Origin: Cantharellus purpuraceus
Lineage: Eukaryota; Basidiomycota; Agaricomycetes; Cantharellales; Hydnaceae
Reading direction: 5' to 3'
Assembly: GCA_025174535.1 (NCBI GenBank)
Contig: JALBUN010000003.1
Location: 310,001 to 374,000, forward strand
Length of the DNA stretch: 64,000 nt
Positions 5,586-52,343 of the stretch are shown here, in pieces (the first letter of the stretch is position 1; each line of letters opens with the position of its first letter). Both the position numbers and the translations under genes were made by a program. The notes under the pieces are model-generated. The model had not been told where the DNA came from. It saw only the letters and a program-made list of their open reading frames with translations, and made no database searches.

Positions 5586-6120
5586 TCTAATTTAGGTATG
5601 GCTAGTCGGACAGGTTTTGCTGTGCCTTTAAAGCACGTCAGTGGGACCTGACTTCAATGGGAGACTGTCAATAACAATAAAAGAAGGATGGCTGCAACTC
5701 TGTGAAGGTATAACATAGTACACATGACTTATAACAAGGCTCCCCCATCTCCCATGTCGGATCTACACATCCCACAAACTACCTAAACACAGACCATCTA
5801 TGGCCTAAAGCAACTATAATGGAGCTTATCTATCTATCTACAAGGGCAAGCGAACCTCTCGCCATGCCTACAGTGCCTTACGTAAAGGACACCTATTTAC
5901 TCCACGGCAAACCACAAAAGCCACGCTGAACATATTGCATCGCCTCAGCACAGGCCGAGTTGACCATACACATGCTTCTTTACTAATACAAAAACTACAT
6001 ATTTTGCAAAAGAAACCATTCAATGTAAAGACACTCGCTCCAAGTTACCTAGACCTCGGCCATGATTTAGAAGAAACCAAAGGCAAGTCTCTAGGAAAGA
6101 AGGAAACGAAAAGTTAATCC

Positions 6121-6370
6121 CCTGACGACACAAGCCGGCACTGCAATAGCAAGGTCATCATATCCCTCGACATGCAAGCAGAGGTCAAAGGACGGGGGCG
6201 GCAAAAATTGGCTAACCAATGATGACCGCGGTGCGGTCATTTTAGTGGTTAAACTAAAAAGAACAGATACTACACTTGATCTAAGCCTGTAATAAGAAAA
6301 GTAAATGTTAGTTGCTATATCCACCGAAGGTCTGCTAAGGGGGTACGCACCAAAAGGCCAGAGTGGTAAA
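6121..6370 (-). ncRNA. U2 spliceosomal snRNA, apparently containing an mRNA-type intron
   Basis: The minus strand carries the U2 landmarks in order. They are 5' CTCTGGCCTTTTG (stem I, 5' arm), then GCTTAGATCAAGTGTAGTA with the GTAGTA branch-site pairing element, stem IIa (TTTTAGT/ACTAAAA), stem IIb (TGACCGC/GCGGTCA) and an Sm site AATTTTTG near 6205. The stem-IV loop is TATTGCAGTGCC (binds U2B'' in known U2 RNAs), and closing pairs TGATGAC/GTCGTCA lie near 6121. Between CCTTTTG and GCTTAG, where U2 RNAs are contiguous, lies a 64-nt insert at 6287-6350. It has GTGCGT at its 5' end, CAACTAACATT as branch site, a pyrimidine-rich stretch and TTACAG at its 3' end. Removing it restores the universal CCTTTTGGCTTAGATC. 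Ends are approximate (5' end 6369-6371, 3' end 6119-6123). Mature length would be about 186 nt, close to the usual 185-190. Confidence 0.88.
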
Positions 6371-6395: not shown

Positions 6396-6402
6396 TTATA
6401 TA
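6396..6402 (-). promoter_or_regulatory. TATA box of the U2 snRNA gene
   Basis: TATATAA on the minus strand, about 26-32 nt upstream of the inferred U2 5' end, the spacing expected for a TATA-dependent polymerase II promoter. It supports the 5' end chosen near 6370. No snRNA-type proximal element could be recognised. Confidence 0.6.
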
Positions 6403-6703
6403 CCTTTCTTGGGCGTCTATTACCGACGTGCACGGGCCAGCTACGTGGGGGACGGCGTACAATAGGCATATCCGTTCCCTGACTGGCATTGGCGTAATGC
6501 AAAGCGTTACCTATAGAACTTTGTCTATCTTCTCTTCTGAGTATATAAGGAGTTGCAAATTTCAGTTCGATATGCTTTTGCACACGAGGCGTCAATGTGG
6601 TAGTCTCTTTGCGGCGTCTCACGTCAAGCCCAAATCGGAAACAAGCGATAGATATATTTGTGTACTGAAGCAAGAAAAACAAAAATCTGCCCCATCCGCC
6701 ATC

Positions 6704-15953: not shown

Positions 15954-16700
15954 ATGTCGTCTCCAATCTACTACCATCCCAACGGCTCTCCCTATGCCGC
16001 TGCTGCGATACCTCTACCTCCTTCACCTTATGGATCTCCATACACATCTCCATACGCGTCACCGTTCGGCTCTCCATACGGTGCTGCCATGGTAGCGTTG
16101 CCACCATCGCCGTACACCGTCCCACTGCAACACACGCCCGTACACAATGCATTGCCTCTCCCACCGTCTCCCAGTGCGCTCGTAGCCACAGCGTCGAATT
16201 TCAAAGCGCATCGTATGCTAGCACTCAATCCAGAAGACCCCGCAATTGCGTGGGACGTACGTCTCCCACCCGACACCATCCGTATAGCCAAGACACCCTA
16301 TCCTGCACTCACAGAATACCACCGTGATCAGCATGCAGTATCTCCACCCTGGACATTTGTACGCCTGCGCTCAACGCTTCTCCCATGGATCGTAGAATGT
16401 ACGAACCCGGCAGGTGTCACCGTAGGCGACGTACTGGATGCTGTTTACGACTGTTTGAGAGCCAAGGTAACTAAGGATGAATGGCGAGATGCAAGCAAAG
16501 AGTTTCAAGGACGTTTGCTGGAGGCGTGGGAGAGGCGATGTATCCAGACCGGCGCAGATGAGGGTAGGGCTGCGAGGCTCAGGGAGGAGAGAAAAGGCAT
16601 CCGAAGGGTCGATTGGTTATTGTGGGATTTCGAGTGGTTGGGTATTGTGAGGAATGAGAGTGAGCTTGAGACATGGGATATACACTTCAGGTCACGGTGA
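15954..16700 (+). CDS. DUF6699 domain protein (copy 1)
   Basis: Single exon, 248 aa. Start taken at the ATG (MSSPIYYHPNG) rather than upstream non-ATG codons in the same open frame. Residues 1-85 are low-complexity, rich in Pro, Ser, Tyr and Gly, with repeated S-P-Y-G/T units. From about residue 90 the DUF6699 pattern follows: IAWDVRLPP, RLRSTLLPWIVE, VTVGDVLDAVYDCLRAKVTK, DEWRDA, and GIRRVDWLLWDFEWLGI near the end. The domain is common in Agaricomycetes and has no known function. It is the only copy on the plus strand; four relatives lie on the minus strand at 41.9, 51.6, 54.1 and 60.3 kb. Confidence 0.85.
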   Translation: MSSPIYYHPNGSPYAAAAIPLPPSPYGSPYTSPYASPFGSPYGAAMVALPPSPYTVPLQHTPVHNALPLPPSPSALVATASNFKAHRMLALNPEDPAIAWDVRLPPDTIRIAKTPYPALTEYHRDQHAVSPPWTFVRLRSTLLPWIVECTNPAGVTVGDVLDAVYDCLRAKVTKDEWRDASKEFQGRLLEAWERRCIQTGADEGRAARLREERKGIRRVDWLLWDFEWLGIVRNESELETWDIHFRSR

Positions 16701-41879: not shown

Positions 41880-42677
41880 TCACGTGCCCGTCCAAAACTT
41901 GACCGACTTTTCGCCCTGCCCAACATGCATGACCCACTGGTCGCGCGCGCGCCCGGGGGTCAAGCCGCGAAACACGGTGTACTTGGTGAGCCAGTCCACG
42001 CGGCGGAGGCCATTGTTCGACTCGTACGTGCGCTCCTTGTGCGACTGCTGGCGCTTGCAGCGGCGGAGCCACGCGTCGCGCACGCGCTGCTGCATGCCGG
42101 CGGACGAGGCGTGCCACTCGGACGCGGAGGCGCGGTGGCGGAGCGCGCGGTAGATGCCGTGGAGGACGTCGCCGACGGAGACGGCGGCGCTGCCGCTGGC
42201 GGAGGCGGGGTAGATGTCGATGGGCCACGGGAGGTCGGCGCAGCGGATGTGGAGTGCGGGCTGCGGGGGGGAGGTGGCGGGGCGTGCGAGGTCGCGCTCG
42301 GTGAGGCCCGCGTAGGAGGAGCGGGAGGCGCTGTGGGGGATGAGGATGTGTGAGGGGGAGAGGGTGAGGTCGAATTCGATGGACGCGCGGGAGGCGAGCA
42401 CGGGGTCGATGGCGGGGGGTGTGGGCGCGGCGGCGTGGGGGTATACGGTGCGGGCGGGTGTGGTGTAGTAAGTGTGCTGGCGGGAGGCGAAGGTGGTGGA
42501 GGAGGTGGGCGCACTGGGTGTGGTGTAGTAAGAGTGCTGGCGGGAGGCGGAGGAGGTGGTGGTGGTGGTGGAGGAGGAGGGCACACTGGGGTGCGAGCGC
42601 CGAGAGTAGGAAACGTAGCTGGGCGCGGCGAGGGTGTTGTGCGAGTGAGAGCGGTGGTGGTGGTGGTAGTGGGCCAT
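41880..42677 (-). CDS. DUF6699 domain protein (copy 2), histidine-rich N-terminus
   Basis: Single exon, 265 aa from the ATG at 42677 (MAHYHHHHRSHSHN). In-frame ATGs at 42725 and 42743 are possible; a CTATAAAG box at 42711-42718 argues against a start far upstream, but an AATATAAT element near 42825 would allow them. Residues 1-100 are Ser/Thr/Pro-rich with two SRQH(S/T)YYTTP repeats. The domain follows: FDLTLSPSHILIPHS, PALHIRCADLPWPIDIYPAS, VSVGDVLHGIYRALRHRASA, SEWHASS, GLRRVDWLTKYTVFRGL, and DQWVMHVG at the end. The coding strand is very GC-rich compared with the other copies, matching its GC-rich surroundings. Function unknown. Confidence 0.85.
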   Translation of the reverse strand: MAHYHHHHRSHSHNTLAAPSYVSYSRRSHPSVPSSSTTTTTSSASRQHSYYTTPSAPTSSTTFASRQHTYYTTPARTVYPHAAAPTPPAIDPVLASRASIEFDLTLSPSHILIPHSASRSSYAGLTERDLARPATSPPQPALHIRCADLPWPIDIYPASASGSAAVSVGDVLHGIYRALRHRASASEWHASSAGMQQRVRDAWLRRCKRQQSHKERTYESNNGLRRVDWLTKYTVFRGLTPGRARDQWVMHVGQGEKSVKFWTGT

Positions 42678-42743
42678 GGTGGCAGACGAAGAGGAGGAGG
42701 AGGACCCGCCCTTTATAGCGGGCATCACCTCCGTGTGAGACAT

Positions 42744-45589
42744 GGACACGACAGTCAGCAGCAAGCAGCAAGCAGCAGCTCTCTTGCCAACCACTTTCCA
42801 GCTCACCCGGCGGAGTATCAAATTATATTCGCCTGACAACCATCGCCTTCAGGAGACATCCTGCACCGCTTGGCAAACAGCAATGCACCTCATTCCTGTG
42901 TTTTCTCTTCGTCTCCCCCCGTCGGTGGCTCTGGGCCACGCTTGGGCGGCATGCACGGCGGCCCTCTCCCTAATCACGCCGCAGTACAGGCGCCACCACC
43001 CAAGCACTCCACCGTGGAGCCCTCTGGTCTCAGACGATTGGTTCACCCCTTTGGACACCGGACTCGGTGTTATCGCAAGACACTCGACTCACGCGCAGCC
43101 CACGACCAGACTTTCCGCAGATCCCATCTCTGGTGCCGGATCTGGCACCGCCCCGGCGTACTACAAGTAGACATTGTATATACACGGATCCGAATACGCG
43201 TCCCCGCGCGCGTCATGAACTCTTGCCCGATTTAACTTGCTTGGTACACGCGATAAGACCGCGCGCAACACGCTTTCTCATTAACATTGATGCGCTCGCG
43301 TTTCATTTATCTGCATCTCCCCCCGACACGAACAACACGGTGATTGATCCCGTGCCAATAATAACAAACTATAAGCATGCTACGGCCAAGCGAAGCGCGC
43401 TTACGTTGTTGGTTACGTTATCCCTGGCGTGTCTGTAGATCCCGTCCCCGTCCTCGACCACACAAGCACACGTGTGCGGGGGGGCCAACGCAAAAAAAGA
43501 AGAGAAGGACACGCATGATGGATGCGGAGAAGTCCTTCCCTGCACCGCCCTCCCAAGTCAGTCTCTATCGAGTCACAATCGAATCACGACACATGTATTA
43601 CGAATCGCTCATGCCACCCGATGGCATGAGTCACGGATCGTGAATCTAGGGGGGGAGGGGTGATCTCTCCCCAATCTTACCGACCATCTCCACCCCCGCA
43701 CGGACTCGATCCCATTCGAACATCTCACGTGTTAACGTCAATGTTCCCTGCATACCGTGCACTGCCCCCACAAGACACTGCACTGTGTTGATATCGTCTC
43801 GCTTGCCCTTGGCAGGATAATGTCGCATATCATCAGAAAGTCTGAACGTCTGCAAGTCTAAACGGCCACCACCGCCAATATACCACGTGCGGTATATCGC
43901 ACGTAAAAGGCGGTTCGAGATCCCCCGTGTAACACGTCCTTGGATTGTCATCCATCCAGCCAGCTGTCACCAGTCGAGTAATCAGAAGATGCCCCCCGTA
44001 CATCCCCACATCCGTGCTATATGCTATATTCGTTTTACCCCGCTCTGGCCTGCGCTCCACGGCTTGCTTCCGAGTCTAGGACCTTTGCTTCTGCTTCTGC
44101 TTCTGATGCTTCTTTCGACAAATATATATATATATATTTCTTCTTCAGAAAACATCACCACGGCATACCTTATCTAACACAACAGCTCGGCTCAGTCCCT
44201 CCGTTCTCTATCAGTGTACATCCATCCTAAAAATAAAACGTGCTGCCAGCCAGTCAACTAGTCAGCCAATTATCCTGGTACATTATGCTTTACCAGTCAA
44301 CTATATACTTGGGGAGATCCCGCCCCCCGCCCGTGCTTCTCTTGATGCATCTTTTTCCTTTCTTTTCTTTCTTCATTTTTATTGTTTATTTTATTTTTTC
44401 GCTTCGGCCTCTGCTTTCCAACCACACACCCCACGTCCCGCTCACATTCACTGACACATACATAAGCCCACAGAACCCAACAACGTGCTGCACGCCATAC
44501 ATTACGCTCTACATGCCTTTACCCTACTCCACAGCTCCTCCTAATTCTCCTGCTTCCGAGCCCTTCTTCTTTCCCGAGGGTTTTATTTCCATTCCACGAC
44601 TCTGCCCTCTTCTTTTTCCAAAATTTATCTTATTTATTTGGGATCCACGTCCCCGTGATACACAAAACCGCCCAGACCGACCTGCGGAACACAGTGACAG
44701 TGCTGATCACTTGCAGTAATGTAATTAATCAATCATCATGCATCATGCCCCGCTGACTGGCAAAGCGCAGGTGTCGCACGGGTATATACTCCGGCGGCGG
44801 CGCCGGCGAATCCCAAAAGCCAAGCACGCACGCGCACGCACCGCCCCCGACTCACACACCGCCCCCGACTCACACATACCGTCCGCGGTCAGAGCCATCC
44901 ACCAATCCCCGGCGCGCCACTCAGGCGCCCCTCGTCCTTCCAGCTGCGCATGCCCCCCCCATGCCTATTATACTCCCCTTGGCTTGGTCTTCGCTCCTTG
45001 ACAAGTACCTATATCGCGCGCACCAGTCCAGCTCGGCAGCCCGCCCAGTCCCGCAGTTCCAGGCATTTATACGCATACCTCGGCTCACACGCGCGCGCGT
45101 TTTTTCGTATTCGCTCGTATACACGAGTTTCATGTGTTCTTCGCGCCGTCACGGGTGGGTGTGGCGGCCCAAATGTCAATACAAAAACGCCATGAGCGGG
45201 CGGGGAAAAAGAAGGGAAATTCATGTGAAAAGGGAAAAGGTGTGTGAAAGGGAAAAAATAAAAATAAAAATATGTGTGTAAAACCGTGCATCTGTGCGTG
45301 CAATTGTGTCAATGTGTGGCCGCGCGTGCGGCTGATGTGCATCAAACGCCTGAGAAGTCAACCCACAAACCGCGCAAACCTCCATCTGAAGAACCGCATC
45401 TCCCTCCCTCGCGATCTCCCATGGTAGAACGTCCGCGTCAACACCCTGCACCAGGCCCGAGATAATCGTGACGCACCTGGCACGAAGGAAAAGTCCGGGA
45501 AAGGCTGCTTCTGTAGACGCAGGCGTAGGGACACTGGCACCCGACATCAACCATACCTGTCCCTCTATCCCTCCTCTCCGGCCTGCCCA
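42744..45589. other. No supportable gene
   Basis: GC-rich and pyrimidine-rich tracts, an (AT)n run near 44123-44136, and a T/C-rich block 44340-44420. The many frames here overlap on all strands with biased composition, and none shows a domain. Confidence 0.4.
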
Positions 45590-51557: not shown

Positions 51558-52343
51558 TCACCGTCGTCCCTGTAACTTTGGCTGTGGCCCAAGCTTCAAA
51601 AGCCATTCCTTGGGGTCTTCCACAGGAGCAACGAGCTTTAACCCCATAAAGAACGACTTTTCACCAAGGATATCACCCTTTATGATATGCGAGTCCACCT
51701 TGAATGACGCCGGGCTCCTCGCCAGTCTCAAACCCCGCGCCTTGTGCATCGCGCGCTTGACATTGCTAGATTCCTCGTCCCACTCATCCCGCTGCAGCGG
51801 TTCCTGCAATGTTCCATGTATCGCGGCAAAGACATGCTTCACCGTCACCATTTCATGGCGTGGGAGAACAATGGCAACGGCCCATGGGAAAGAGTCGGAT
51901 ACAATCCGCATGTGGTGTACGGGAGGATCTGTGGCGGGCTCTGCTAGGATAGCTTCGGGGATTTTCTCGAGAACGCCTCGGCTGGGGACGTGCCGTGCTG
52001 CGTGTAGGCCGTGGGTGACATCCCAAATAGCGATGGGATGGTGTGATTCCCCAAGGAAATAGTGGAGCTGGATCTCTTGTGGTGTGATGCTTCCTGGCGA
52101 CCAACTGTTAGTGTGATGATCTTGTCCGGGTACCAACAGTAGGTACTCACGACGTCGATCTCTCCTCTGTCTTGGTGAGATTGGATAAGCAGGGTACGGA
52201 GCACCCATGGCAGGAGCGCCATATTGGGGATACTGAGGGTATCCCCATGGATACGCCTGGGGATATTGCGAGTAGGCAGGGTACAGCTGTTGTGGCCATT
52301 GACCGCTAGAGTAAACGGGATAGGAGGTGTATCGCGCGGGCAT
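51558..52343 (-). CDS. DUF6699 domain protein (copy 3)
   Basis: Exons 52343-52151 and 52093-51558 (57-nt intron; GTGAGT donor, CACTAACAG branch, GCCAG acceptor); 242 aa. The intron length is a multiple of three and leaves the frame open, so a naive reading would include 19 extra residues. N-terminus is Tyr/Pro/Gln-rich (SSGQWPQQLYPAYSQYPQAY). The domain: IAIWDVTHGLHAARHV, MRIVSDSFPWAVAIVLPRHE, VTVKHVFAAIHGTLQEPLQR, DEWDEE, FFMGLKLV, EWLLKLG at the end. A TATATAAG box near 52503 lies about 160 nt upstream. Closest by eye to copy 4 (54.1 kb): same intron position, the HGTLxEPL block and the EWxLxLGP end. Confidence 0.87.
   Translation of the reverse strand: MPARYTSYPVYSSGQWPQQLYPAYSQYPQAYPWGYPQYPQYGAPAMGAPYPAYPISPRQRRDRRREYLLLVPGQDHHTNSWSPGSITPQEIQLHYFLGESHHPIAIWDVTHGLHAARHVPSRGVLEKIPEAILAEPATDPPVHHMRIVSDSFPWAVAIVLPRHEMVTVKHVFAAIHGTLQEPLQRDEWDEESSNVKRAMHKARGLRLARSPASFKVDSHIIKGDILGEKSFFMGLKLVAPVEDPKEWLLKLGPQPKLQGRR

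Follow-up and report, generated by a model that had tools for sequence, protein, structure and literature searches.

A split U2 snRNA gene

The minus strand of the analysed DNA, a stretch of 64,000 nt that is here referred to as the window, carries a U2 snRNA gene, which matched the Rfam model RF00004 with 100.8 bits (gathering score 46, E 3.9e-19). U2 was the sole Rfam family above threshold in the whole window, and no tRNA was detected in it with ARAGORN. The following features, all on the minus strand, were assigned in and around the gene, in the direction of transcription:

6427-6433, minus strand: upstream promoter element GTGCACG of the window U2 gene, at -66 from the presumed start
6397-6402, minus strand: TATA box TATATA of the window U2 gene, at -35
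6351-6367, minus strand: U2 exon 1, ACCACTCTGGCCTTTTG, 17 nt from a presumed start, identical in 4/4 copies
6287-6350, minus strand: spliceosomal-type intron within stem I, 64 nt, GTGCGT...CTAAC...CAG, same site in 4/4 U2 genes
6345-6350, minus strand: intron 5' signal GTGCGT
6307-6311, minus strand: candidate branch site CTAAC, with the branch A 21 nt before the end of the intron
6287-6289, minus strand: intron 3' end CAG
6116-6286, minus strand: U2 exon 2, 171 nt up to the end of the Rfam U2 match (putative 3' end)
6268-6273, minus strand: branch-recognition element GTAGTA, from reading of the sequence
6202-6209, minus strand: Sm site AATTTTTG, from reading of the sequence
6137-6148, minus strand: loop IV TATTGCAGTGCC, from reading of the sequence

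In the window copy, GUAGUA is followed by the Sm site in the expected order, and both elements are invariant in an alignment of the four U2 copies of the genome. A sequence-only reading of the window had placed a series of U2 landmarks on the minus strand and a 64-nt split at 6287-6350; every landmark was recovered where it had been placed, and the borders of the split are exact. This exact placement and the recurrence in 4/4 copies support the view that the U2 gene is real and that its insert is an intron of the spliceosomal type, within stem I beside the branch-recognition element. Intron bases occupy the first Rfam U2 model positions of the window copy, because the model is ignorant of the split.

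For comparison, U2 genes of other eukaryotes were taken from four stretches of mislabelled genome bins, namely L055, L056 with only 12 nt upstream, and L057 and L058, which are overlapping pieces of one contig. In all three of the genes having upstream DNA (L055, L056 and L058), CCTTTTGGCTAAGATC is uninterrupted. Among viral contigs, the number of U2 loci for comparison was zero. The minus strand of L057 additionally contains, at 772-792, a perfect 21-nt U2 core without the rest of U2, and the bin to which L057 belongs, labelled Trichormus, also contains a whole eukaryotic-type U2.

All U2 genes found in the genome are interrupted at the same base

The assembly that was searched comprises 40.15 Mb in 50 contigs and may miss a copy. 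Four U2 genes were identified on four contigs, C3 (the window), C7, C17 and C49. The identical four places were obtained with the covariance model, in a genome search that scores the best candidates only, with a 21-nt core allowing up to 2 mismatches, and with BLAST of the joined exons. Their RF00004 scores were 100.8, 96.8, 96.0 and 92.6 bits, compared with the gathering score of 46. When the joined exons were used as BLAST query, all four matches began at base 17, which is the exon border, and none crossed it. The uninterrupted junction (GGCCTTTTGGCTTAGATC) was found at 0 places in the assembly with up to 2 mismatches allowed. A check for an intronless U2 elsewhere in the genome, which had been proposed with the sequence-only reading, thus returned none: a GT-AG intron is located at the identical base in all four genes found. 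Identity of exon 2 between the four copies is 84-95% over 165 nt.

The U2 introns are 64, 59, 57 and 58 nt long. Every one of them has a GTNNGT start, a CTAAC or CTGAC whose branch A precedes the intron end by 15-21 nt, and TAG or CAG as its last bases; the C49 intron contains two additional, weaker branch-like matches. The interiors of the introns are unrelated, with pairwise values of 0.32 to 0.49 compared with a shuffled mean of 0.42. As a yardstick for length, the four predicted introns of one gene were used, that of an aldo-keto reductase starting at about 28882 in the window. Spliced alignment to three homologues gave 56, 58, 66 and 56 nt for these introns, the second of which is GC-AG with borders that vary with one homologue, and measured against them the U2 introns are of typical length for the genome.

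The splice signals by themselves are weak evidence, as they occur in the window at a frequency mildly above chance: the loose pattern GTNNGT...CTRAY...YAG had 27 matches, and ten first-order Markov simulations produced 16 on average, with extremes of 7 and 25. Chance is ruled out because the insert sits exactly between halves that are contiguous elsewhere, and because it recurs in 4/4 copies. A mobile intron family was also considered and rejected. The window intron, the only one used in this search, has no second copy in the genome and matches only itself.

Exon 1 is complementary to U6

The exon 1 segment CCACTCTGG is fully complementary to CCAGAGTGG, a segment near the 3' end of U6 that is identical in both U6 genes of the genome. 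This gives nine consecutive Watson-Crick pairs, which was reached by 26 of 2000 shuffles of a 23-nt stretch. It is at this segment of exon 1 that we would expect U2/U6 helix II.

In the alignment of the four copies, 57 pairs were predicted. Two-sided changes preserve four of them, which belong to stems IIb and III; three others are disrupted or gapped, each in a single copy. The two-sided changes would fit selection on several U2 copies. The first 26 nt of the joined RNA, folded in isolation, form stem I (-7.3 kcal/mol). When the whole joined RNA is folded, stem I is not the preferred structure, its pairs having a mean probability of 0.08 to 0.32, and the consensus fold of the four copies lacks it. 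In the cell, U2 is remodelled by proteins and by U6. Pairing of the exon halves across the intron in the precursor was seen in a 127-nt piece and was discarded after full-length folding, in which its probability was 0.00 for all four copies.

Promoters of the snRNA genes

The element GTGCACG is located at -51 to -66 in 4/4 U2 genes, 3/3 U4 genes and 2/2 U1-like genes (see below), and in the same nine genes a TATA element is present at -33 to -37; the U1-like genes were found via the promoter pattern and thus lend it no independent support. The constant distance of the TATA element supports a predicted transcript start at exon 1.

Within 90 bases upstream of the five U5 and U6 genes, no TATAWA was found. 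About 60 bases ahead of their starts, these genes (L009-L013) have in common an element resembling ACAGGCYCAACCAAA, which was recognised by eye in 5/5 and by pattern in 3/5, and they have T-runs downstream. It may be that U5 and U6 of this fungus both have a Pol III-like promoter.

An intron in one of three U4 genes

The other snRNA genes found were two for U6, three for U5 and three for U4, with matches that span the models end to end. The model alignments were those of the 10 best of 14 matches, and the remaining genes were judged from their sequences; on this basis no intron was seen in the two U6 and three U5 genes. The U4 copy on C17 (L016, minus strand, 5' end of the match 565886-566014) is interrupted by a 51-nt GT-AG intron. 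This copy consists of TCTCTTGTG, 51 nt with a GTACGT start and a GACAG end, and then CTCGGGCATGTACTG / CTCGGGCATG. In the U4 paralogues on C34 and C45 the same two pieces are joined, so that the intron is present in 1/3 U4 genes, and its gain or loss therefore postdates the duplication. Seven consecutive bases of U4 are complementary to U6 here (CTTGTG/C with GCACAAG), and the split separates the last of them from the other six. On C17 the U4 and U2 genes are in head-to-head orientation, with about 0.7 kb between their model matches.

For U1, no Rfam match was obtained in the genome, even at E 10, a level at which 9 of 14 control genomes gave matches, all under the cut-off. Inspection by eye of 25 exact ATACTTACCTG sites gave no convincing U1. 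Eleven of these 25 sites share the flank of a dispersed repeat (L029, L034, L037-L040, L043, L044, L048, L050 and L052). The promoter pattern was found at 45 places in the genome, compared with 59 for the reversed control, and is thus not specific on its own. Of 15 pattern places without a locus, 12 were examined and the other 3 were U2/U4 genes; places with identical 60 bases downstream were excluded. In this way two U1-like genes were identified, L071 (C9, near 444150, minus strand) and L074 (C10, near 455340, plus strand), which are 95% alike and both start with ATACTTACCTTGATGG behind a promoter of the U2/U4 type. The Rfam U1 model did not match L071 or L074 at E up to 1, and their assignment as U1 genes is tentative. 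Seven of the 45 pattern places belong to a different dispersed repeat around CACTCGYGATCTCTGAAYCG (L066, L079, L086-L088, L091 and L096).

Proposed dependence of U2 synthesis on U2

Taken together, the preferred reading is that the genome has four functional U2 genes, all of them interrupted by an mRNA-type intron at one identical base of stem I, and that the synthesis of U2 would need existing U2. A probability of about 0.87 is given to this reading, in which splicing itself, the transcript ends, the type of polymerase and the expression of the four genes are what we infer from the DNA. In the proposed mechanism, a Pol II-type promoter, common to the U4 genes, would yield a U2 precursor whose 17-nt first exon contains the 5' half of stem I together with the segment that pairs with U6. 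The U2 intron would then be recognised by U1 and mature U2 and removed by the major spliceosome. Splicing would join CCTTTTG to GCTTAGATC, with the 5' end of U2 at or near ACCACTCTGG. The two halves of stem I would be joined in this step, and stem I and helix II would become available only after splicing.

Branch-site recognition by the major spliceosome depends on mature U2. With all U2 copies found being split, new U2 could be made only in the presence of mature U2, and as the assembly yielded no intact U2 gene, each cell would have to receive a functioning spliceosome from its parent. A cell that loses U2 would be unable to restore it from its genes. The sequence-only reading had described the intron as a possible autoregulatory point. 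This is a weak proposal, because U2-dependent maturation of U2 is a positive feedback, which would amplify a shortage and would not hold a level. The proposed dependence suggests that a fungal genome of 40 Mb can do without an intact gene for a core spliceosomal RNA, and that the machine is needed for its own making.

Possible origin of the introns

The identical site, the unrelated interiors and the strongly conserved exons fit a single gain of the U2 intron before the four copies were dispersed, after which the introns would have diverged freely. A single gain is less certain than the splicing and expression of the four genes. Several insertions at the identical base, or gene conversion that spread one of them, are conceivable routes as well, though less simple ones.

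Compatible with the self-dependence of U2 described above, the U2 and U4 introns could have been reverse-spliced into the snRNAs at their contacts with U6 and then copied into DNA. This origin is possible, although the odds are somewhat against it. The split of U2 directly after the U6-complementary segment (nine of nine), that of U4 one base inside the end of its complementary run, and the presence of the U4 intron in 1/3 paralogues are consistent with it, and the same origin is cited for the U6 intron of fission yeast in PMC10484740. Against it, a genome search with the window intron, the one intron used for this purpose, found no donor, the difference between the U4 genes may be a loss, no intron was seen in U6 (2 genes) and U5 (3 genes), and two sites are too few for statistics. 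A fuller version, in which free introns were reverse-spliced into U2 and U4 at the U6 contacts, the U2 insertion became fixed in every copy and the U4 insertion came later, leaving paralogues with an empty site, is unlikely on present evidence. If it were true, the spliceosome would be an obligately self-propagating, inherited machine in this lineage. With an intron in one paralogue and not in two, the U4 genes constitute an internal experiment on gain versus loss, and hence on reverse splicing.

Alternative readings of the insert

It is very improbable that the insert stays unspliced, with mature U2 starting inside or after it or with the insert retained as an expansion of the stem I loop. 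This reading draws on the Rfam alignment, in which a full-length U2 is obtained using intron bases as the 5' end, and on the 127-nt precursor piece, in which the exon halves can pair around the insert. However, the halves are unpaired in full-length precursor folds (probability 0.00, 4/4), the intron interiors are unlike one another, exon 1 is invariant and pairs with U6, and the TATA distance points to exon 1. It is hardly credible that an insertion has left the window with a dead U2 pseudogene and that an intact functional U2 lies elsewhere, even though split U2 genes are rare in general and an assembly of 50 contigs may be incomplete. This reading was rejected on the four split copies at the same base and the lack of an uninterrupted junction in the assembly, next to the conservation of the exons, the promoter and the U6 pairing.

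Comparison with known introns in small RNA genes

Introns in snRNA genes are of an already known kind. For Rhodotorula hasegawae, an mRNA-type intron of the U2 snRNA gene is on record (Takahashi et al., 1993, as cited in PMC2586383). The likeness to the genes described here is that a spliceosomal-type intron is located in a basidiomycete U2 gene. In R. hasegawae the U2 intron is reportedly about 60 bp long and immediately downstream of the branch-site recognition domain, and introns are said to be present also in U1, U5 and U6. In contrast to this reported site, the intron here is upstream, in stem I; moreover, 4/4 copies found here carry it, and U5 and U6 show none. The present genes are a further case next to the U2 intron reported in 1993 from the basidiomycetous yeast.

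In fission yeast and several other fungi the U6 gene contains an intron (PMC10484740, PMC5832005). It is likewise of the mRNA type and interrupts the gene for a spliceosomal RNA close to a functional region, and reverse splicing is the origin proposed for it, whereas here the interrupted gene is that of U2 and both local U6 genes match the U6 model end to end and are intronless. PMC5832005 also describes canonical introns near the 5' end of U3 snoRNA genes, which are widespread in Basidiomycota, with U3 paralogues both with and without the intron in some fungal genomes, and terms U3 and U6 the sole small structured RNAs known as often interrupted. The mixture of intron-bearing and intronless U3 paralogues resembles that of U4 here, but U3 acts outside the spliceosome and its intron thus involves no self-dependence.

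A description of a U2 or U4 intron in Agaricomycetes was not found in the open-licence literature, which is weak evidence. The site in stem I, the fixation in all copies and the U4 pair with and without the intron may be new, the site in stem I provided that the R. hasegawae intron lies where it is reported to lie.

Other genes in the window

The best matches of the aldo-keto reductase encoded in the window were metagenomic proteins; among proteins of named species, the best matches came from Sphaerobolus stellatus, with 71% identity across 73% of the query, and the next ones from other Agaricomycetes. Judged by these matches, the DNA would be that of an agaricomycete, perhaps a fungus near Sphaerobolus. 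Three DUF6699 (PF20415) proteins are encoded within 36 kb of the window, at 15954-16697 (plus strand), 41883-42746 (minus strand) and 51561-52343 (minus strand).
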